Part shown: positions 2,639 to 13,500 of the stretch, piece after piece | Layout: every line of letters begins with the position of its first letter | Position numbering within the stretch: the stretch's first letter is position 1 | Source of the DNA: Comamonadaceae bacterium | GTDB lineage: Bacteria > Pseudomonadota > Gammaproteobacteria > Burkholderiales > Burkholderiaceae_C | Length of the DNA stretch: 36,240 bases | Reading direction: 5' to 3' | Assembly: GCA_947448325.1 (NCBI GenBank) | Contig: CANFMK010000005.1 | Span: 1 to 36,240 of the forward strand | Made by a program: the position numbers and the translations under genes | The notes under the pieces: generated by a model | Database searches by the model: none | What the model saw: only the letters and a program-made list of their open reading frames with translations | Told to the model about the DNA's origin: nothing

Positions 2639-3565
2639 TCAGGTCAGTTTCCCTCCACCCAAGACTTTTTGATTCACGCTGACTTTGTCGGCTTTGACCC
2701 CTTGTTCGTCAAAGGTGACGCGCTGATTGACACGGTTGTGAGGCCAATAATCGGCCACTGCATAGTGCTGGGTGGATCGGTTATCCCAAATGGCAATGCC
2801 ATGAGCCTCCCACTGATGATGAACCATGAATTCAGGCTTCTTCATCCATTCCAGCAAAAACCGCAAAACACCCACCGCTTCATGGCGATCTACCCCTTCG
2901 ATGTTGCGAGTGAAATCGCTGTTGACGAAAATACATTTGCGCTTTGAATCGGGGTTGATGCGCACGACCGGATGCACCACAGGTTTGAAAGCTCTGATGG
3001 CTGCAATCAAGGCCTCATCACCGCGTTTCCCCAACGCTTCCCGAAAACCTGAAACTTCCCAACTGTGAACAGCGGTGAGCCCCTCTAGATATTTTTGCAT
3101 GCCAGGGGACAACCACTCATAGGCCTTGCTGGTACTGATCCAACACGTGTTGCCCCCTGCTGGTGGCGTCACAGTGATTTGAATCGCCGTGCCCAAGGGA
3201 GGATGAGGCTTCCAACTGATATCCGTGTGCCAATTGTCGATGGACGGTGGACGCTCGGGGTCGGAGGTGATGACCTCCAGGTCTGGTGAAGAAGGATGCC
3301 GGTCAAAATAAGAACCCGAGGACAAGGGGCCAAACACTTTGGCCAAGGCAATGTGCTGATCGGGTGTAATGACTTGAGGTCGAAAGAAGATCACCTCAAA
3401 ATCAAACAATGCTTGACGCAATTCAGCTTGAACGGGCTTGCTCAACGGTTGGGTCAAATCCACGCCTTCGATCCACGCAGCAAAGTTGGGCATGCGCGGC
3501 ACGGGCTTGATGTGCTTGTAGCGTTTGGCGATATTGATCAGTTTCAGGGGTTTGGTATTGGCCAT
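2639..3565 (-). CDS. TauD/TfdA-family 2-oxoglutarate-dependent dioxygenase
   Basis: NWHTDISW (HxD), AIWDNRSTQHYAVADY and distal RVTF region; N-terminal GVDLTQPLS...FDFEVIFFRPQ typical of the family. Confidence 0.9.
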   Translation of the reverse strand: MANTKPLKLINIAKRYKHIKPVPRMPNFAAWIEGVDLTQPLSKPVQAELRQALFDFEVIFFRPQVITPDQHIALAKVFGPLSSGSYFDRHPSSPDLEVITSDPERPPSIDNWHTDISWKPHPPLGTAIQITVTPPAGGNTCWISTSKAYEWLSPGMQKYLEGLTAVHSWEVSGFREALGKRGDEALIAAIRAFKPVVHPVVRINPDSKRKCIFVNSDFTRNIEGVDRHEAVGVLRFLLEWMKKPEFMVHHQWEAHGIAIWDNRSTQHYAVADYWPHNRVNQRVTFDEQGVKADKVSVNQKVLGGGKLT

Positions 3566-3660
3566 GGGAACTCACTTTCGCGTGAATGAAAAAAAGGGGA
3601 GAAGCAGGAGGGGCGGATAGATTGGAAAATTGGTGATGTTTCAGAAAATCCAAAACTAGG

Positions 3661-4416
3661 TCATTGCCAATGGAGCAAACGTTTTTCAAGCCATGTCATG
3701 GTTTTCATCACACTGACGCCGATCACGGCCAAGACCAAGAGCAGGGCCATCACCCCATTGACTTCAAAAGTGGAGCCTAAATAGGCCAATGATTGGCCAA
3801 GACCCTTTTCTGAGGCAATGATTTCCGCGCCGATAACGCCCAAGAGTGAATAGATCAACCCCAAACGCAGCCCCGAAAAAATCACCGGTACAGCACCCGG
3901 CAGGGTGACCTGAAAAAACGTTGATATTGCGCTGGCGCCCAAAGTCTTGCAAAGGGTCACATGGTCTTGACTCACGCCACGTATGCCTGCAACGGTGCTT
4001 GACAACACAATAAAGAAAGTCAAGCTACAACCCAGTGCAATCTTTGAACCGAGCCCCAAGCCAAACCACAAGATGAAAAGTGGTGCCAATGCAATTCGTG
4101 GCATCACATTCATCGCGTTCAAATAGGGCTCAAGAAACTTCTCAAATTTTGGAAACCCGACAAACAACAAACCTACGGTTATAGCGGCCACACTGCCAAT
4201 CGCAAAAGAAATTAGAGTCCCGGCCATGGTCCAACCCATGTCAACCCACAGTTGTCCAGATGTGAAGTTGTTCCATAAAAATTTCAAAATTCCGCTGGGT
4301 TGCCCCACAAATGTCGGATCGAGCCAACGGTTGACTGTGAGCCATTCGCCCAGTGCGAACATGACACAGACAAAGACCAGGTGTACGCCAGCCCACTTTA
4401 ATTTTTCAACCTTCAT
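3661..4416 (-). CDS. ABC transporter permease (TauC/SsuC-like)
   Basis: MKVEKLKWAGVHLVFVCVMFALGEWLT..., EAA-type loop GASAISTFFQVTLPGAVPVIFSGLRLGLIYSLLGVIGAEIIASEKGLG. Start overlaps the upstream ATPase end. Confidence 0.88.
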   Translation of the reverse strand: MKVEKLKWAGVHLVFVCVMFALGEWLTVNRWLDPTFVGQPSGILKFLWNNFTSGQLWVDMGWTMAGTLISFAIGSVAAITVGLLFVGFPKFEKFLEPYLNAMNVMPRIALAPLFILWFGLGLGSKIALGCSLTFFIVLSSTVAGIRGVSQDHVTLCKTLGASAISTFFQVTLPGAVPVIFSGLRLGLIYSLLGVIGAEIIASEKGLGQSLAYLGSTFEVNGVMALLLVLAVIGVSVMKTMTWLEKRLLHWQ

Positions 4417-5215
4417 GTTTGCTCCAACCAGATTCAAGATGCGACCATATCTGCGCATAAAGCTCGTGGAAATGGGGGTCTTTTTGAAGATCGCGAATGG
4501 AGCGCGGACGTGGCAAGTCAATGGCAATATTGGCCACGATGCGTCCAGGCCTTGAGGTCATGACCACCACACGATCAGAAACCGCGACGGCTTCTGATAA
4601 ATCGTGCGTCACAAAAAGGACCGACTGCTGATGTTGTTGGCACAGGCGCAACAACAGATCTTCCAGTTGCAGTTTGGTTTGCGCATCCAGCGCGCCAAAA
4701 GGTTCATCCATCAACAAGACTGGAGAACCCAAAGCAAAAGTGCGGGCCAGAGCAACCCTTTGACGCATGCCGTGCGAAAGCGCTTTGGGATAGGCCTTTT
4801 CAAAACCTGCCAAACCCACCTCAAGCAACATGGCTTGGGCACGTTCTTTGGCTTGTGCCACGGGCACGCCGCGCACTTGCATGCCAAACATGGCGTTTTC
4901 TAAAGCGGTCTTCCAAGGGAGCAGGCTGTCGCGCGCTAGCATATAGCCGACTTGGGGATTGCCTTGCACGGGCGAAGCGCCAGCCAGTTTGATCGTGCCT
5001 TTTCCGGTCTGCGCCACCAAACCAGCAGCCATATTCAAAAGCGTTGTTTTGCCACAGCCACTGGGGCCGACCAAGGACACAAATTCGCCTTGCTGAATGT
5101 GCAATGACACGTCAAATAAGACCGGGCTCGTGCCATCAAAACTCAAACTGAGACCATCGACCGCAATGGCAAGCAATTCAGGATGAGATTCGATGCTGGT
5201 GTTGACCTTGTGCAT
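4406..5215 (-). CDS. ABC transporter ATPase (TauB/SsuB-like)
   Basis: Walker A GPSGCGKTTLL, signature LSHGMRQRVALAR, Walker B VLLMDEPFGALD. Confidence 0.93.
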   Translation of the reverse strand: MHKVNTSIESHPELLAIAVDGLSLSFDGTSPVLFDVSLHIQQGEFVSLVGPSGCGKTTLLNMAAGLVAQTGKGTIKLAGASPVQGNPQVGYMLARDSLLPWKTALENAMFGMQVRGVPVAQAKERAQAMLLEVGLAGFEKAYPKALSHGMRQRVALARTFALGSPVLLMDEPFGALDAQTKLQLEDLLLRLCQQHQQSVLFVTHDLSEAVAVSDRVVVMTSRPGRIVANIAIDLPRPRSIRDLQKDPHFHELYAQIWSHLESGWSKHEG

Positions 5216-5218
5216 GGA

Positions 5219-6223
5219 TCAACGCAGTTGCAATATTTTTGAGGTGTCGACTGTTTTATCGATTTGTGCTGTTTTGTGTAAATAGTCGGCGGCAGCTTGC
5301 AAGGCTTTAGGATCAAGCGAGAAGCCTGCGCCGGAGATGGAACCTCGCAATGATGTTTCTACAGCCAATGCGCCTGCAGGCCCTTCTATCTTGAAGGTGT
5401 CGTTGATGATTTTCAGCAATGCATTGAAATTAGCGGGATTCTGAACAAAAACCTCAGACTCACGCATGGCTTTGGCAAATCCGTCCAATGTGCTGGCTTT
5501 CTTCTGCGCAAAATCTCCGCGCACCGTCATTGGCCCCGCAGCACCGTTGAGTTGTGTGATCTCCTTGGGGCCTTCGCCCTTACGGGGGTCCACGATGATG
5601 CGGCAGACTTTCATCGCCACACAAAAGCCGTCCATGGGCGAGAACAGCATGAGCGCGTCTATTTGTTTGTTTGCAATAGCGGGCAAAGCCGTATTGGGAG
5701 AGCCCACCGGTACGATGGTCACGTCACTGCCGGACATACCTGCTCCTTTGAGCATGTCGAGCAACTGAAATTCAGCACCGGAGCCCCGTGCCGTGACACC
5801 GATTTTTTTGCCTTTCAAATCGGCCATCACGGCTGGATAGCCTTTGGCCGCATTCGGCGTTTCAGTGTGTGCACCGGCCATCAGATAGAAAATGTTGCCA
5901 CGTGAACCGCTGCCGATGATTTTGAGATCAGCGCCCTTGTTGACCGCTTGAATCACGACCTCTGCGGGGCCATAAGCCACATCAATGTCACCGGCGAGCA
6001 GTGTCTGAATTCCCAAAGGCGCGGCCGGAATCGATTTGAGTTCGCATTTGATGCTATTTTTCTCGCAATACCCATTGGCGATTGCCACTCGCACCAAGAC
6101 ATTGCCAAGACCGGGGTAATCCTGAATCCGCAGGGTTTCCATCTGCGCCCAAACCGTGGCGCCCCAAGTCAGGGCCGCAAAGCCCAAAGCAGTTCTAACG
6201 AGTGAGGAAAAAAAGAGTGGCAT
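5219..6223 (-). CDS. ABC transporter substrate-binding protein (SsuA/TauA/NMT1-like)
   Basis: Signal peptide ...TALGFAALTWGATVWAQ; LLAGDIDVAYGPAEVVIQAVNKGADLKIIGSG; same operon as permease and ATPase. Confidence 0.88.
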   Translation of the reverse strand: MPLFFSSLVRTALGFAALTWGATVWAQMETLRIQDYPGLGNVLVRVAIANGYCEKNSIKCELKSIPAAPLGIQTLLAGDIDVAYGPAEVVIQAVNKGADLKIIGSGSRGNIFYLMAGAHTETPNAAKGYPAVMADLKGKKIGVTARGSGAEFQLLDMLKGAGMSGSDVTIVPVGSPNTALPAIANKQIDALMLFSPMDGFCVAMKVCRIIVDPRKGEGPKEITQLNGAAGPMTVRGDFAQKKASTLDGFAKAMRESEVFVQNPANFNALLKIINDTFKIEGPAGALAVETSLRGSISGAGFSLDPKALQAAADYLHKTAQIDKTVDTSKILQLR

Positions 6224-6296
6224 GTCGTCTCCAATGTGATGGCTGATCCTTGAGCAAGGTCAAGTCGATCTCATTTGAAAACGCAACGAATTGATC

Positions 6297-6318
6297 AATT
6301 GTTACCCGGGTGACAATT
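6297..6318. promoter_or_regulatory. Candidate Crp/Fnr-type operator
   Basis: AATTGTTACCCGGGTGACAATT: 22-bp dyad, 10 of 11 base pairs symmetrical; contains TGTTA-N6-TGACA. Lies between the divergent SBP gene (starts 6223) and Crp-like gene (starts 6381). Confidence 0.6.
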
Positions 6319-6380
6319 TAAGGGAAAGCACCCAAAATGGATGCTCGACCGAAACCAGCTCTTTCCCGATCCACCGTTCT

Positions 6381-7076
6381 ATGAATTCAGTACCCCCCGC
6401 GCTTCGTGGCACTTCCCTGAAGAGCATCGATGTCATGGCCTTGTCTCAGTCATGGGCTGAGAATTCGGCCCTGATGCCGCGCACCACAGAGGCTTTGATG
6501 AAAATCGGCGTGGTTCGGCCATGGCAAACGGGTCAAGTTGTCCTGAGTCGCGGTCAGTCGATTTCGGTGGCCCTTTTGCTGATCAAGGGCCGAATGCGTG
6601 TCAGTGTGACCACCCTGGATGGCGAGGAACAACTTTTGCGCTGGATGTTGCCCGGCGAAATTTCGGGTTTGAGTTCCGTTTTTGCCGATACCACTTACCC
6701 GGCCGATTTGGTGGCAGCTGTCCCTAGTCAAGTTTTACAGATCGAGCGCGTGAAGTTGCTGGAACTCATCAGTCAAGACGCTTCAGTGGCGGTGGACTTG
6801 CTTCGCATATTGGGCTTGCGTATCAATCAGTTGTTTGACACCTTGGCCGATCAGGTGATGCCCACGCTGGAAAAAAGAGTCTGGGCCACTTTAGAGCGCA
6901 TCGCCAGGTTCAATAGCGTGCAAGTTCCTGACGGTGTCCAGCTGCTGGTCAGTCAAGCCGATTTGGCGCAAGCGGCTATGGCGTCGCGGCAAAGAGTGAA
7001 TCAACAGCTGAGGCGCTTTCAAGCCCAGGGCCTTATTCGACTGGGTTACCGCAACATCGTTTTGCTGCGCAAGTGA
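6381..7076 (+). CDS. Crp/Fnr-family transcriptional regulator
   Basis: cNMP-like sensor region followed by C-terminal HTH 'LLVSQADLAQAAMASRQRVNQQLRRFQAQGLIRLGYRNIVLL'. Start MNSVPP chosen; ORF opens at 6291. Confidence 0.87.
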   Translation: MNSVPPALRGTSLKSIDVMALSQSWAENSALMPRTTEALMKIGVVRPWQTGQVVLSRGQSISVALLLIKGRMRVSVTTLDGEEQLLRWMLPGEISGLSSVFADTTYPADLVAAVPSQVLQIERVKLLELISQDASVAVDLLRILGLRINQLFDTLADQVMPTLEKRVWATLERIARFNSVQVPDGVQLLVSQADLAQAAMASRQRVNQQLRRFQAQGLIRLGYRNIVLLRK

Positions 7077-7351: not shown

Positions 7352-7936
7352 TCAAATAGTTACTATCGCTTTCCTTGGCCAGTTGGCTCGGCTGCCACCT
7401 TGGCGCCGACCGAGCGTTCCCACAGCCTTCTGATCTTGGGCCACTGCCAAGGCGTTAGATTGCATTTTTAGCAAGATTGAAGCCAACATTTTTCTCTCAC
7501 TGGTCGACACATTTGCCATTACACCTTGGTGCACATCAACCACACGTGGAAAAATCTGGGAAAACAAAACATGCCCAGCTGAAGTGAGTAGCACCAGCGC
7601 GCGACGTCCATCACCCGTAACACGCTGTCGCTCAACAAGGCCCTTGAGAATCAAGGCGCGCAAAGTCTTGGACGTTTGCGAGCGGTCAACCGTGGTTCGT
7701 GCCGCTAGATCTGAGGGCGACAAAGCGCCCAGATGTGCCAGCATGGCGACAAATTGCCATTCTTCACGGGTGATGCCATAGCCACTTTCGCACAACCGAG
7801 TGACAACGGAACCGCTGACACCCACAAATTCAGAAAATAGAAAATTCACCAAATCGAAAATCGATGAAGGTGAAGCCAAGTCAGGCAGATGGGGCGTTGC
7901 AATCAAAGAACTTTTGGGAAGGCCCATGTCACACAC
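7352..7936 (-). CDS. MarR-family transcriptional regulator
   Basis: ITREEWQFVAMLAHLGALSPSDLAARTTVDRSQTSKTLRALILKGLVERQRVTGDGRRALVLLTSAG; GTG start at 7936 or ATG at 7927. Confidence 0.87.
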   Translation of the reverse strand: MCDMGLPKSSLIATPHLPDLASPSSIFDLVNFLFSEFVGVSGSVVTRLCESGYGITREEWQFVAMLAHLGALSPSDLAARTTVDRSQTSKTLRALILKGLVERQRVTGDGRRALVLLTSAGHVLFSQIFPRVVDVHQGVMANVSTSERKMLASILLKMQSNALAVAQDQKAVGTLGRRQGGSRANWPRKAIVTI

Positions 7937-7958
7937 TTCTTAAGGGAAAGCCCCAAGA

Positions 7959-7979
7959 GTAATGGATTTTTTCCATTAC
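7959..7979. promoter_or_regulatory. Candidate MarR operator
   Basis: GTAATGGA-TTTTT-TCCATTAC, perfect 8-bp inverted repeat between the divergent marR and aminotransferase genes. Confidence 0.6.
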
Positions 7980-8031
7980 CCGTTTACTACCTATCCTCTC
8001 ATTTAATTCAAAGCCAAGGGAAATCAGACGG

Positions 8032-9390
8032 ATGCAAACTCCTATTGATATACGCAGCGCCAATGCGCAGCACATGTACCACCCGATGATTGACCCAAAG
8101 ACGGTCGCGCAAAGCCCGCCTTTGATCTTGGAACGAGGGGAAGGCGTTTACGTTTATGACATCGACGGCAAACGCTATTTGGACACAGTCGCGTCCCTCT
8201 GGAATGTGAATGTAGGCCACAACCGCCCTGAAGTGATCGCGGCCATGAAATCGCAGTTGGACAAGCTCGCCTATTACTCCACCTTCCAGAATACCTCCAA
8301 CCCACCCGCCATCGAGCTATCGGCTCGCTTGATTCGAATGTTTGCCCCAGAGAAAATGAGCAAAGTATTTTTTTCTTCTGGGGGGTCTGATGCGATAGAA
8401 ACCGCCCTGAAACTGTCGCGGCAATATTGGAAACTGAACGGACAAAACAGCCGCGAGCAATTCATCTCACTCAAATGGGGTTACCACGGCGTGCACTTCG
8501 GAGGAGCTTCAATTAACGGCAACCCCATGTTCCGCAGTGCATATGAGCCTTTGCTTCCCGGTTGCCACATCGTGGAAAGCCCTTACGCCTACCGTAACCG
8601 CTGGAACGAAGAGGATCCAGTACGACTTGCCCAACTTTGTCTACAAGATCTGAGAGACACCATCCAACGAGTCGGTTCTGAACACATTGCAGCCTTTGTG
8701 GCCGAGCCGGTGCAAGGTGCGGGGGGCGTGATCGTGCCGCATGCCAGCTACTGGCCGGGACTGCGTCAACTACTTGACGACTACGGAATTTTGTTAATTA
8801 GTGATGAAATCGTGACCGGGTTTGGCCGCATTGGTGCCATGTGTGGCGCACGCGCATGGGGCGTTGCCCCGGACATCATGGCAATGGCCAAAGGAATCAA
8901 CTCGGGTTATGTCCCGCTCGGCGCAACTTTGGTGAACGAGCGAGTGGCTCAGGCTTGGACGCAATCGGGCGTCCCTGCAGCCATGATGCACGGCTACACC
9001 TATTCGGGCCATGCACTGGCGTGTGCCGCCGCCAACGCGAATCTGAACATTGTGGAAGCCGAAGACTTGCCCGGGCAAGCCTTGGCAGTTGGCGACTACA
9101 TGCAAAAGTGCCTGCAAGAACTGATGCGCTATAGCCATGTGGGGGATGTGCGCGGCATGGGGATGATGGCGGCCATTGAGTTGGTGGTCGACAAAGCTAG
9201 CCGCGACATGCTTACGCCGCCATCGCCTTACATCCAGGCTTTGGTTGGCACCGCACGCCAAGAAGGCGCCATCATTCGAGTGCAAGGCAATCGTTTGATT
9301 TTGTCGCCTCCATTGGTGTTCTCCCTTGGAGACGTAGACGAAATGATGGAAATTTTGCACACTTCCTTTGCTGCTGCCGAAGCAATCTGA
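8032..9390 (+). CDS. Class III (omega) aminotransferase, PLP-dependent
   Basis: GVYVYDIDGKRYLDTVASLWNVNVGH, FFSSGGSDAIETALKLSRQYW, LLISDEIVTGFGRIG, MAMAKGINSGYVPLGATLV (PLP lysine). Confidence 0.94.
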   Translation: MQTPIDIRSANAQHMYHPMIDPKTVAQSPPLILERGEGVYVYDIDGKRYLDTVASLWNVNVGHNRPEVIAAMKSQLDKLAYYSTFQNTSNPPAIELSARLIRMFAPEKMSKVFFSSGGSDAIETALKLSRQYWKLNGQNSREQFISLKWGYHGVHFGGASINGNPMFRSAYEPLLPGCHIVESPYAYRNRWNEEDPVRLAQLCLQDLRDTIQRVGSEHIAAFVAEPVQGAGGVIVPHASYWPGLRQLLDDYGILLISDEIVTGFGRIGAMCGARAWGVAPDIMAMAKGINSGYVPLGATLVNERVAQAWTQSGVPAAMMHGYTYSGHALACAAANANLNIVEAEDLPGQALAVGDYMQKCLQELMRYSHVGDVRGMGMMAAIELVVDKASRDMLTPPSPYIQALVGTARQEGAIIRVQGNRLILSPPLVFSLGDVDEMMEILHTSFAAAEAI

Positions 9391-9421
9391 ACCTTTCGAA
9401 CTATCAATACAGGAGATTGAG

Positions 9422-10390
9422 ATGAACAAATCTACAACGTCCCGCAAAGGCATCATGGCGCTGGCCGCCTTGGCTATCTTGAGTGCTTTGCCCGCCATGG
9501 CACAAGACAAATGGCCTAGTAAGCCCATTGAGATTATTTACCCCTACCCACCCGGCAACGACATGGATATCGTCACTCGCCTGCTCGCTGAAGGCATGAG
9601 CAAACGCCTGGGTGTGCCTGTGCAAGTCATTAACAAACCTGGCGGGGGCGGCGTGGTTGGTTTTGCCGAAATGACACGCGCAAAACCCGACGGATACACC
9701 ATCGGCACTTGGACACCAGGGCCGGGTATTTCACAAATCATTGCCGGAAATACGCCTTACAAAATGGCGGATTACCAGTCCGTGGGGGGCATGCTGATCA
9801 ATGATTTTGTTCTGGCCTCGCGCGGAGACATTCCGGCCAACAACCTCAAGGAGTTCGCTGCCTGGGCCAAGCAATCGGGCAAACCCGTCACCATCGGCAG
9901 CTACGCGCCCGCCGCCGTGCCGGCCTTGATCGCCGCCAAGATTGCCAAAAGGGACGGCTGGCCCTACAAAGTTGTCTCCTTCCCCAATCCCAGCGCAAAG
10001 GAACTGGTTGCTGGCGACGCAGACGTCACGACAGCAGGTGCGGAAGGTGCGCTTTCTTACGCCAAAGCGGGACAGATCAAAATTCTCTCTGCCTGGGGAC
10101 CAGCACGCAACCCCGTCTTTCCGAATGTAGCCACTCCAGCGGAGGAAGGCTATGGCGACATTTATTCTTGGGGCGGAATGGCGGCCCCTGCCGGAGTGCC
10201 CAAAGACATTGTCAACAAGCTGTCTGCTGTGATGATGGAAGCCTTGAAAGACAAGCCCGTGCAAGACCAATTCAAAAAAGCCGGTATTCCCGCCTTGTCC
10301 ATGACAGCAGATCAGATGTCTAAGCGTGTTGCGGATGACAGCAAATGGATTGCCGAATTGATGAACGAATTAGGCTTCGCTAAAAAGTGA
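9422..10390 (+). CDS. TTT substrate-binding protein (Bug/TctC family)
   Basis: Signal peptide ...AILSALPAMAQDKWPSKPIEIIYPYPPGNDMDIVTRLLAEGMSKRLGVPVQVINKPGGGGVVGF. Confidence 0.93.
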   Translation: MNKSTTSRKGIMALAALAILSALPAMAQDKWPSKPIEIIYPYPPGNDMDIVTRLLAEGMSKRLGVPVQVINKPGGGGVVGFAEMTRAKPDGYTIGTWTPGPGISQIIAGNTPYKMADYQSVGGMLINDFVLASRGDIPANNLKEFAAWAKQSGKPVTIGSYAPAAVPALIAAKIAKRDGWPYKVVSFPNPSAKELVAGDADVTTAGAEGALSYAKAGQIKILSAWGPARNPVFPNVATPAEEGYGDIYSWGGMAAPAGVPKDIVNKLSAVMMEALKDKPVQDQFKKAGIPALSMTADQMSKRVADDSKWIAELMNELGFAKK

Positions 10391-10881
10391 GCGCCCAAAA
10401 GTCAGTGGCATCCTGGAAAGGCTCCTGGGACAAGGGCTTGATAGCTCTGTGCATCTTGGTATCAGCTGCCGCCTGGATGGCCACTCCCCAGCTGATAACG
10501 CCTTATCCGCTACAAGCGCCCTGGTTCGAATCTGCCGCTTTCTTTCCCCGTGTGACTTTGGGAGTGGCGTGTATCGCGGGCTTGGTGGAGTTATACCAAC
10601 GACGCAGAGCCGTGGAGGTGGCCGACTCGGATGAACTCGACTCCAGCAGCGCCAGCATGCTTCAGGCACTGGGTATGTTGGTGTTGTTTGGGCTGTATAT
10701 GCTCGCAGTCCCTTGGGCCGGCTATTTGACAAGCACCGTCGCCTTTTTGATGGCCAGTGGTGCATGGCTGGGTTTGAGTTGGCGTGCTACGCTCACCTTG
10801 AGTTTGCTGCTATCGCTGACTATGTGGTGGGTATTTGTCAAAGTGCTCAAGGTGTACTTCGGTCACGGTTGGTTGATTTGA
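10387..10881 (+). CDS. TTT small membrane subunit (TctB family)
   Basis: Four hydrophobic segments, position between tctC-like and tctA-like genes. Confidence 0.85.
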   Translation: MSAQKSVASWKGSWDKGLIALCILVSAAAWMATPQLITPYPLQAPWFESAAFFPRVTLGVACIAGLVELYQRRRAVEVADSDELDSSSASMLQALGMLVLFGLYMLAVPWAGYLTSTVAFLMASGAWLGLSWRATLTLSLLLSLTMWWVFVKVLKVYFGHGWLI

Positions 10882-10883
10882 GT

Positions 10884-12407
10884 ATGGATTTTTTCAGCAG
10901 CTTGAGTCAGGGATTTGCTTCTTTGGGAACGTGGCCCATCGCTACCTCCTTGCTTATCGGTGCGGCCTTGGGCATCATCGTGGGTGTTTTGCCAGGCGTT
11001 GGTCCCGGGGTGACGATAGCGGTACTGCTGCCCTTCACTTACGGCATGGCGCCTCTGGCGGGCATTTCACTTTTGCTGGGCGTGTATTGCGGGGCTTTTT
11101 ACGGCGGTGCAGTGACCTCCATTTTGATCCGCACACCTGGTGAAGCCTCCTCGATCATGACCATGTTCGATGGTTACCCGATGGCCAAAAGCGGACAAGC
11201 ACAACGCGCACTGTCACTTGCCTTCATGTCGGCCTTTGTGGGCGGCATTGCCAGCGCTTTGCTACTGGGACTGGCGGCAAGACCGATGGCCGGCTTTGCC
11301 GCTCGCTTTGGTGCCCCGGAGAGTGTCATGGCGATCGTTTTGGCGGCCGTGTGTGTGGGCAAAGCCTATCGCAAACAATTTGCCTCTGCCATGATGATGA
11401 TGGGCTTAGGTTTCTTTTTGGCTACTGTTGGCATCGATCCTAACTCCAACGAGCAACGCTATACCTTTGGCATTGCAGGCGTACTCAGCGGAATCCCACT
11501 GGTGCCTGTGGCCGTAGGCTTATTTGGCATGGCCCAAGCACTGGTGATGGTGAGCTCTCCTGTGCCCAGCTTTGACGCATCTCTGATTCAGAACGCCGGC
11601 TTGTCTTGGCGCGGATTTCTGGAACCCTTCAAATACCCTAAGGCCATGGCCAAGGGCTTGTTTCTCGGCTCGGCCATTGGCGTGCTGCCTGCAGTAGGGG
11701 CGGCGCTGTCGACCTCGCTGGCCTATTTTTGGGCACAACGCGGTGCCAAAGACACCACGCCGTTTGGCCAAGGCAACCCCGAAGGAATTGTGGCTGCCGA
11801 ATGCGCCAACAATTCCAATTCTGGTGGGGCCATGATCACGGTGCTCACCCTGGGCATTCCAGGGGATGCAATCACAGCCATCATCATGGGCGTGTTTGTG
11901 GTCCACGGCATCGTGCCGGGACCCTCTTTGTTTATGGACCGACCCGAGATCATTAACGGCGTGCTGGCTTCTTTGCTGGTGATCAACGTGGTCATCCTGG
12001 CCTTGCTGGTGCTCACGGTCAAACCCTTGGCACGTTTGGCCTATGTCAACCCACGCATTTTGGGATTGGCGATTTTGGCGCTGTGTTTCGTCGGCGCGTT
12101 TTCGGCCGCCAACAGCATGTATTACGTCAGCATTGCTGCCGTCTTTGGCGTGCTCGGACTCATCTGCGCTCGCGCCAATATTCCCACCATCCCCTTGATT
12201 TTGGGCATGGTCATGGGCGATACCTTGGAGGCTTCACTGCGCCAAGCCTTCGGCCGCAGTGAAGGCGCATTCAACCCTTTTTGGGAACGCCCTGTTTCTG
12301 CCGTTTTACTCGGTATCACGGTATTGCTAATCATTTGGCCCTGGCTCTTGAGCCTGTTTGCAAAGCGCGTCATACCCTATGAAAACAACAGCCTACATCA
12401 CCGATGA
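10884..12407 (+). CDS. TTT large membrane subunit (TctA family)
   Basis: MDFFSSLSQGFASL...LGIIVGVLPGVGPGVTIAVLLPFTYGM, GGAVTSILIRTPGEASSIMTMFDGYPMAK, GGAMITVLTLGIPGDAITAIIMG. Confidence 0.95.
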   Translation: MDFFSSLSQGFASLGTWPIATSLLIGAALGIIVGVLPGVGPGVTIAVLLPFTYGMAPLAGISLLLGVYCGAFYGGAVTSILIRTPGEASSIMTMFDGYPMAKSGQAQRALSLAFMSAFVGGIASALLLGLAARPMAGFAARFGAPESVMAIVLAAVCVGKAYRKQFASAMMMMGLGFFLATVGIDPNSNEQRYTFGIAGVLSGIPLVPVAVGLFGMAQALVMVSSPVPSFDASLIQNAGLSWRGFLEPFKYPKAMAKGLFLGSAIGVLPAVGAALSTSLAYFWAQRGAKDTTPFGQGNPEGIVAAECANNSNSGGAMITVLTLGIPGDAITAIIMGVFVVHGIVPGPSLFMDRPEIINGVLASLLVINVVILALLVLTVKPLARLAYVNPRILGLAILALCFVGAFSAANSMYYVSIAAVFGVLGLICARANIPTIPLILGMVMGDTLEASLRQAFGRSEGAFNPFWERPVSAVLLGITVLLIIWPWLLSLFAKRVIPYENNSLHHR

Positions 12408-13500
12408 ATTGTGCTTTTGGCATGACCCCGGCAATTACGCACTCATGCTCAAACCCGGTGGGTTCATTGAACCCTACAACCGTCACATTGAAAATGCCGA
12501 CCCTAAGAGACGACTGCATAACCTGCTGCAAACCAGTGGGCTTATGTCGCAGTTGAAAGTCATGCCAGCGCGAGACGCGCAACACCATGAACTCACGCGC
12601 ATCCACAGTGCCGAGTACGTGCGTAAAGTTCAAGCCATTGCCTTGCAAGGTGGCGGGGACACGGGCGTGGGTGCGCCCATATCGGCCAACGGCTGGGACG
12701 CGGCTAGCCGCTCCGCAGGCTGTGCCCTGAGCGCAGTCGATGCCGTGATGCAAGGTCAAGCCGATTCGGCGTACGCACTGACTCGACCACCGGGCCACCA
12801 TGCCGAGCCCGAACAAGGCATGGGCTTTTGCGTTTTCTCCAATGCCGCCTTAGCCGCTGCTCACGCGATCGAGGCCTATGGCTTGCAACGGGTTGCCATC
12901 ATCGACTGGGACGTGCATTTTGGCAACGGGACACAAAAATGTTTTGAAAGCCGCAGCGATGTGCTGACTCTCTCGGTGCACCAGCAAGCGGGTTATTTAA
13001 TGGTCAAAGGCGAGGTCGACGAACTCGGCGTTGATCAAGGACTAGGTTACAACATCAACGTCCCCTTGCCACCGGGTTGTGGCTTCGGTGCTTACCGGGA
13101 AGCCTTTAAAAAAATCGTTCTGCCTGCCCTGGAGGCTTACCGACCGGAACTAATCATCGTGGCTTGCGGCTACGACGCCGGTCGTTTTGACCCCTTGGGC
13201 CGGATGCTGCTGGATGGAGTGGCTTTTCGATGGATGACCGATGCCGTGATGGATGTAGCACAGCGCCACGCACAGAGTCGATTGGTTATGACCCACGAGG
13301 GGGGCTACTGTCCTGTGTCCGTGCCCTTTTGGGGACTGGCGGTACTGGAACAACTCTCAGGCCACACAACGCAAGCCTCTTGCCCTTTCACGCCACAGCA
13401 TGACCAAATGCCTGCACAAAAATTGCAAGACTTTCAACGGGATTTGACTCGGCAATGGGCCGCCCATTTTGAAGATGTACGTCAACGTTTCTGGCGTTGA
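12379..13500 (+). CDS. Class II histone deacetylase / acetylpolyamine amidohydrolase family protein
   Basis: TRPPGHHAEPEQGMGFCVFSNAALAAAHA, VAIIDWDVHFGNGTQKCF (Zn ligands), VACGYDAGRFDPLGRM. Confidence 0.92.
   Translation: MKTTAYITDELCFWHDPGNYALMLKPGGFIEPYNRHIENADPKRRLHNLLQTSGLMSQLKVMPARDAQHHELTRIHSAEYVRKVQAIALQGGGDTGVGAPISANGWDAASRSAGCALSAVDAVMQGQADSAYALTRPPGHHAEPEQGMGFCVFSNAALAAAHAIEAYGLQRVAIIDWDVHFGNGTQKCFESRSDVLTLSVHQQAGYLMVKGEVDELGVDQGLGYNINVPLPPGCGFGAYREAFKKIVLPALEAYRPELIIVACGYDAGRFDPLGRMLLDGVAFRWMTDAVMDVAQRHAQSRLVMTHEGGYCPVSVPFWGLAVLEQLSGHTTQASCPFTPQHDQMPAQKLQDFQRDLTRQWAAHFEDVRQRFWR

Follow-up and report, generated by a model that had tools for sequence, protein, structure and literature searches.

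The stretch of DNA analyzed here (36,240 nucleotides, "the window" hereafter; contig CANFMK010000005.1 of assembly GCA_947448325.1, positions 1 to 36,240) comes from a freshwater Comamonadaceae bacterium, and between positions 7352 and 13500 it carries a candidate catabolic operon together with its putative regulator. Five genes lie on the forward strand, namely a class III (omega-type) pyridoxal 5'-phosphate (PLP) aminotransferase (8032-9390; PF00202, E 1.1e-95; NCBIfam PRK07481), the three subunits of a tripartite tricarboxylate transporter (TTT), and a zinc amidohydrolase with a class II histone deacetylase (HDAC) fold (12379-13500; PF00850 Hist_deacetyl, E 2.9e-82), which is of the HdaH type and resembles sub-cluster 1b. 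The transporter genes encode a TctC/Bug periplasmic binding protein (9422-10390; PF03401, E 5.6e-40), the small membrane subunit TctB (10387-10881; PF07331, E 2.6e-14; GTG start), and the large permease subunit TctA (10884-12407; PF01970, E 1.4e-123). The open reading frame of the HDAC gene opens at 12358, with an ATG at 12379, and ends at 13500. From the aminotransferase to the HDAC gene, consecutive genes are spaced by a 31-nt gap, a 4-nt overlap, a 2-nt gap, and a 29-nt overlap that places the HDAC start within tctA, and this spacing indicates that the five genes (8032-13500) form one operon; dusA is the gene that follows, after an interval of 309 nt. A MarR-family regulator (7352-7936, reverse strand; Pfam MarR_2, E 1.6e-13) is transcribed away from the operon, and an inverted repeat, GTAATGGA-TTTTT-TCCATTAC, sits at 7958-7980 between marR and the aminotransferase gene. 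An earlier note on this DNA had listed marR as divergent from five same-strand genes, and searches against Pfam and NCBIfam recovered the same genes, at the same or nearly the same coordinates.

Among solved structures, the nearest to the operon HDAC is Pseudomonas aeruginosa HdaH (PaHdaH, PA3774; 5li3 and 5g0x), with 357 bits and ~47% identity. The two proteins share their family, the type of L1 loop, the RPPGHH (136-141) and EGGY (307-310) motifs, and the catalytic residues. The zinc ligands D178, H180, and D266, whose alignment the earlier note had left to a full comparison, line up with those of PaHdaH, as do the His pair H140/H141, N183, and Y310, and the catalytic set (His pair, Asp-His-Asp zinc site, Asn, and Tyr) is invariant or nearly so across 83 aligned sequences. 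The RPP and EGGY motifs go with selectivity for acetyl rather than long acyl groups (Graf et al. 2024, PMC11532494). In a tree built by a quick method, with some long branches and with PaHdaH as the sole published sub-cluster sequence placed, a branch with a Shimodaira-Hasegawa-like approximate likelihood ratio (SH-aLRT) support of 100 separated all 79 putative 1b sequences, PaHdaH included, from other HDAC-family proteins, and the operon HDAC grouped within a subclade of 15 sequences (support 99). This subclade departs from PaHdaH at the rim of the active site: the N-terminal L1-loop insertion is present, but its sequence is altered (PYNRHIEN) and 2 residues shorter, and the F/Y-P rim motif that follows a conserved HQ, which nearly all other 1b sequences retain, is missing. 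Both changes argue for a changed substrate, and the operon HDAC probably acts on a compound different from that of PA3774, for which the physiological substrate is itself unknown (PMC8556138). A rim-loop lysine was also considered as a conserved carboxylate anchor and rejected, because different sequences have K, R, S, Q, or T there.

The aminotransferase scores 644.8 bits against NCBIfam PRK07481, above the curated cut-off of 575, and its closest solved structures are the omega-transaminases 5lh9 and 6s54. Its AKG lysine, LW, GYHG, and IIR arginine align with the putrescine transaminase 6gwi (338.9 bits); we take the first to be the PLP lysine, and the others to be the Trp, Tyr, and Arg residues of amine transaminases. 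As in known TctABC/Bug systems, the importer comprises three subunits, each identified by a standard Pfam match, and the PDB relatives of TctC include BugD, BugE, and TphC. Unlike these solved Bug proteins, which carry a GG motif, TctC displays PPGND at the same place, a replacement shared by 23 of the 25 members of the linked TctC cluster and one that may reflect an unusual ligand.

The distribution of the HDAC is patchy: of 401 genomes from the same family, only 11 gave a hit at E <= 1e-90. Conservation of the cluster elsewhere, on which the earlier note had made its proposal depend, was found in 20 related loci, mostly from Limnohabitans and other Comamonadaceae, each with the complete MarR/aminotransferase-TctC-TctB-TctA-HDAC set and with marR again divergent. 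Cultured carriers of the cluster include Limnohabitans sp. 15K and Limnohabitans planktonicus II-D5. The palindrome at 7958-7980 is likewise kept in 20 related loci, in forms ranging from exact to a degenerate pattern; these include locus L090 (related loci are designated here by L and a number), in which it stands in front of an aldehyde dehydrogenase gene heading the operon. When the bacterium's own genome was searched for further members of a regulon, no second site with <=2 mismatches was found, and with up to 3 mismatches the total number of matches equaled that of a reversed control pattern. The combination of a conserved palindrome and a single good genomic site suggests that MarR is a dedicated local repressor, with the palindrome as its probable operator.

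Loci at a greater distance retain the pairing of HDAC and aminotransferase but differ in the type of importer. The pair is accompanied by an SsuABC/NMT1-type ATP-binding cassette (ABC) importer in L057 and L060, by a Liv-type ABC importer in L122, and by an NCS1-type permease in L132-134, and in L062 the HDAC gene lies directly 3' of the aminotransferase gene in a transporter-free run. Six loci (L057, L060, L090, L096, L097, and L122) include an aldehyde dehydrogenase resembling succinate-semialdehyde dehydrogenase (SSADH) within or beside the operon, in L090 together with the same TTT type and the same operator palindrome. L132, L185, and L130 have class III aminotransferases of other subfamilies, and the HDAC tree requires no fewer than 7 to 11 changes in aminotransferase linkage; the association thus probably arose more than once, which suggests that aminotransferases were recruited repeatedly to HDAC loci. 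HDAC and aminotransferase distances are correlated (rho 0.88), although this value is confounded by species history.

Genomic context was further compared between HdaH-type (1b) loci and controls, i.e. other HDAC-family members of the same order, using a simple home-made gene caller and a hydropathy threshold on a set that includes related genomes, so that the resulting counts are indicative only. A polytopic membrane protein was encoded in the same-strand run of the HDAC gene in 41 of 75 HdaH-type loci vs 2 of 19 controls, and directly adjacent to the HDAC in 25 of 75 vs none of 19. Likewise, a class III aminotransferase was located <=6.5 kb away in 20 of 67 HdaH-type loci vs 1 of 21 controls (Fisher p 0.014), and importer genes were found nearby in 37 of 67 vs 2 of 21 (p 0.00015).

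Taken together, the conservation of the cluster, the exchange of importers around a constant HDAC-aminotransferase pair, the added aldehyde dehydrogenases, and the conserved operator support a logic of import, deacylation, and transamination, and we consider it likely, from this comparative evidence, that the operon is inducible and serves the catabolism of an N-acetylated primary amine. MarR would bind the palindrome until the substrate or a product displaces it; TctC would capture the acetamide and TctAB would carry it into the cytoplasm, where the HDAC-fold hydrolase would strip the acetyl group. The class III aminotransferase would then turn the freed primary amine into an aldehyde, which a semialdehyde dehydrogenase encoded elsewhere in the genome would oxidize to a carboxylic acid. 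Ectoine catabolism offers an analogous combination of import, deacetylation of an N-acetyl amine by DoeB, and transamination by the class III aminotransferase DoeD; however, DoeB belongs to a different hydrolase family, with no HDAC fold, and the regulator and importer of the ectoine system differ from those of this operon. As to substrate, the compound class that best suits a TTT importer, an omega-type aminotransferase, and, in relatives, SSADH-like dehydrogenases is that of acetamido-carboxylic acids, for instance N-acetyl omega-amino acids like 4-acetamidobutyrate or 5-acetamidovalerate, and we tentatively put this class forward as the leading candidate while leaving the greater share of the probability elsewhere; other N-acetyl omega-amino acids, such as N-acetyl-beta-alanine, are possible substrates as well. 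In the open-access literature, we found no described pathway that combines MarR, an aminotransferase, a TTT system, and an HDAC, and papers on the transporters of Ruegeria pomeroyi, a strain with an HDAC-linked Liv transporter, gave no substrate for the latter.

Several observations weigh against a catabolic operon for N-acetylated amines. The operon itself includes no aldehyde dehydrogenase gene, and the best homologues in the bacterium's own genome are unlinked to it and <=41% identical. Close relatives of the HDAC in L063 and L070 have no aminotransferase nearby, and many Rhodobacterales-like 1b HDACs are solitary; solitary 1b HDACs occur chiefly in an alphaproteobacterial-looking group (family f95). 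The usual cargo of TTT systems is carboxylates. The context counts are drawn from phylogenetically non-independent loci and from home-made gene calls. Finally, the literature credits HdaH enzymes with lysine-deacetylase activity, and protein substrates have been proposed for them.

Among other explanations, the one that fares best is that the operon handles a different conjugated amide, e.g. a sulfated, aromatic, or amino-alcohol N-acyl compound, with the aminotransferase and importer serving this larger molecule; the sulfatases, glucose-methanol-choline (GMC) oxidoreductases, amidases, and short-chain dehydrogenases/reductases (SDRs) of sister loci would then be parts of the same pathway. A sulfatase does adjoin the HDAC in L057 and L060, GMC oxidoreductase and sulfatase genes occur together in L062 and L063, an amidase is found in L096 and L097, the Klebsiella HdaH of L127 adjoins monoamine/arylsulfatase genes, and homoprotocatechuate (hpa) genes lie beside HdaH on Agrobacterium and Pantoea plasmids (L126 and L184). 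Moreover, the relatives PrpH, a propanil hydrolase, and DmhA, a dimethoate hydrolase, are sub-cluster 1b enzymes acting on small-molecule (pesticide) amides (PMC11532494), although they carry RPA and a hydrophobic L1 motif where the operon HDAC retains RPP. The sulfatase, GMC-oxidoreductase, and amidase genes of some sister loci thus still allow for a larger conjugated amide, but these extra genes vary between loci and are absent both from the operon and from the operons of its closest relatives, and we regard this explanation as unlikely.

The earlier note had proposed uptake, deacylation, and transamination, a scheme that is strengthened here, and had pointed to acetylated polyamines among the substrates, a part that now seems unlikely. 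Under this alternative, the operon would degrade N-acetylated polyamines or diamines such as N-acetylputrescine, with the HDAC as an acetylpolyamine amidohydrolase and the aminotransferase acting on putrescine or cadaverine. The fold is indeed common to acetylpolyamine amidohydrolases, and class III aminotransferases include putrescine transaminases such as 6gwi. The characterized cluster 4 enzymes (PA1409, PA0321, and MrApaH), which share the superfamily and zinc chemistry with the operon HDAC, also serve catabolism when cells grow on acetylated amines (PMC4784309). However, PA3774, the nearest characterized enzyme, is inactive on acetylcadaverine and acetylputrescine, and growth of the mutant on both compounds is normal (PMC4784309), while among tested bacterial enzymes polyamine deacetylases occur in cluster 4 only (PMC11532494). 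The operon HDAC falls in another cluster. Its gatekeeper, as judged by motif and by alignment with PaHdaH, is PLG (DPLGRM) rather than the PIS (bacterial) or PEG (HDAC10) of acetylpolyamine amidohydrolases, and the enzyme scores only 131.9 bits against the ApaH structure 9gkz compared to 357 for PaHdaH. Given the inactivity of PA3774, the restriction to cluster 4, and the PLG gatekeeper, acetylpolyamines are disfavored, and we judge them improbable substrates. Least probable of all is a role in protein lysine deacetylation, with the HDAC controlling the aminotransferase, the transporter, or acetyl-CoA metabolism in the way that AcuC controls AcsA. HdaH enzymes do deacetylate acetyl-lysine substrates in vitro (PMC11532494, PMC4784309), but HDACs of this type occur beside several unrelated importer families, often with no aminotransferase, which does not suggest a single protein target, and the annotated neighbors of the operon include no acetyltransferase or acs gene.

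Beyond this locus, bacterial HdaH enzymes are described as having no known natural substrate (PMC4784309, PMC8556138), and they have been studied mainly as protein lysine deacetylases. The genomic contexts compared here suggest a wider role in catabolism, and we see the case as evenly balanced that many bacterial class II HdaH enzymes are mainly hydrolases of small-molecule N-acetyl amines in import-and-catabolism operons, with the remodeled rim of the operon subclade representing a new specificity. A regulated operon uniting importer, deacetylase, and aminotransferase makes the substrate question testable, as the MarR inducer and the TctC ligand should reveal the substrate, and, in other genomes, the exchanged importers offer independent ways of reaching the same answer.

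Other features of these loci may be of separate interest. Adjoining the operon in the window, a TauD/TfdA dioxygenase, an ABC permease, an ATPase, and an NMT1/SsuA-like binding protein (2639-6223, reverse strand) form a cluster of the sulfonate or taurine uptake type, with a Crp-type regulator at 6291-7076; this cluster was considered as part of the operon system and rejected, as it is absent beside the complete cluster in relatives. In L127 (Klebsiella aerogenes LR134125) and L146, the gene for a major facilitator superfamily (MFS) permease overlaps that for HdaH by 4 nt, and the HdaH of L127 is found near moaE/moaF, the arylsulfatase genes atsA/atsB, and an amine-oxidase-like gene, which hints at monoamine or sulfated amine catabolism. 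UPF0261 (Tm-1-like) proteins recur in HdaH/aminotransferase loci (L097, 3965-5218; L096; L095; L122), and in L095-L097 a second, hemL-like class III aminotransferase gene adjoins the UPF0261 gene. On the Rhizobium plasmid pRACO34Ac (L125, 9001-10118), an HDAC gene is seemingly split in two reading frames, with a match in two pieces and no annotated gene. In L138, L145, L136, and L156, an HdaH-type HDAC is encoded near a second HDAC-fold protein of a different type in one putative operon, alongside genes resembling tripartite ATP-independent periplasmic (TRAP) transporters in L138 and L136 and, in L138, a Pfam-confirmed ornithine-cyclodeaminase-like gene.

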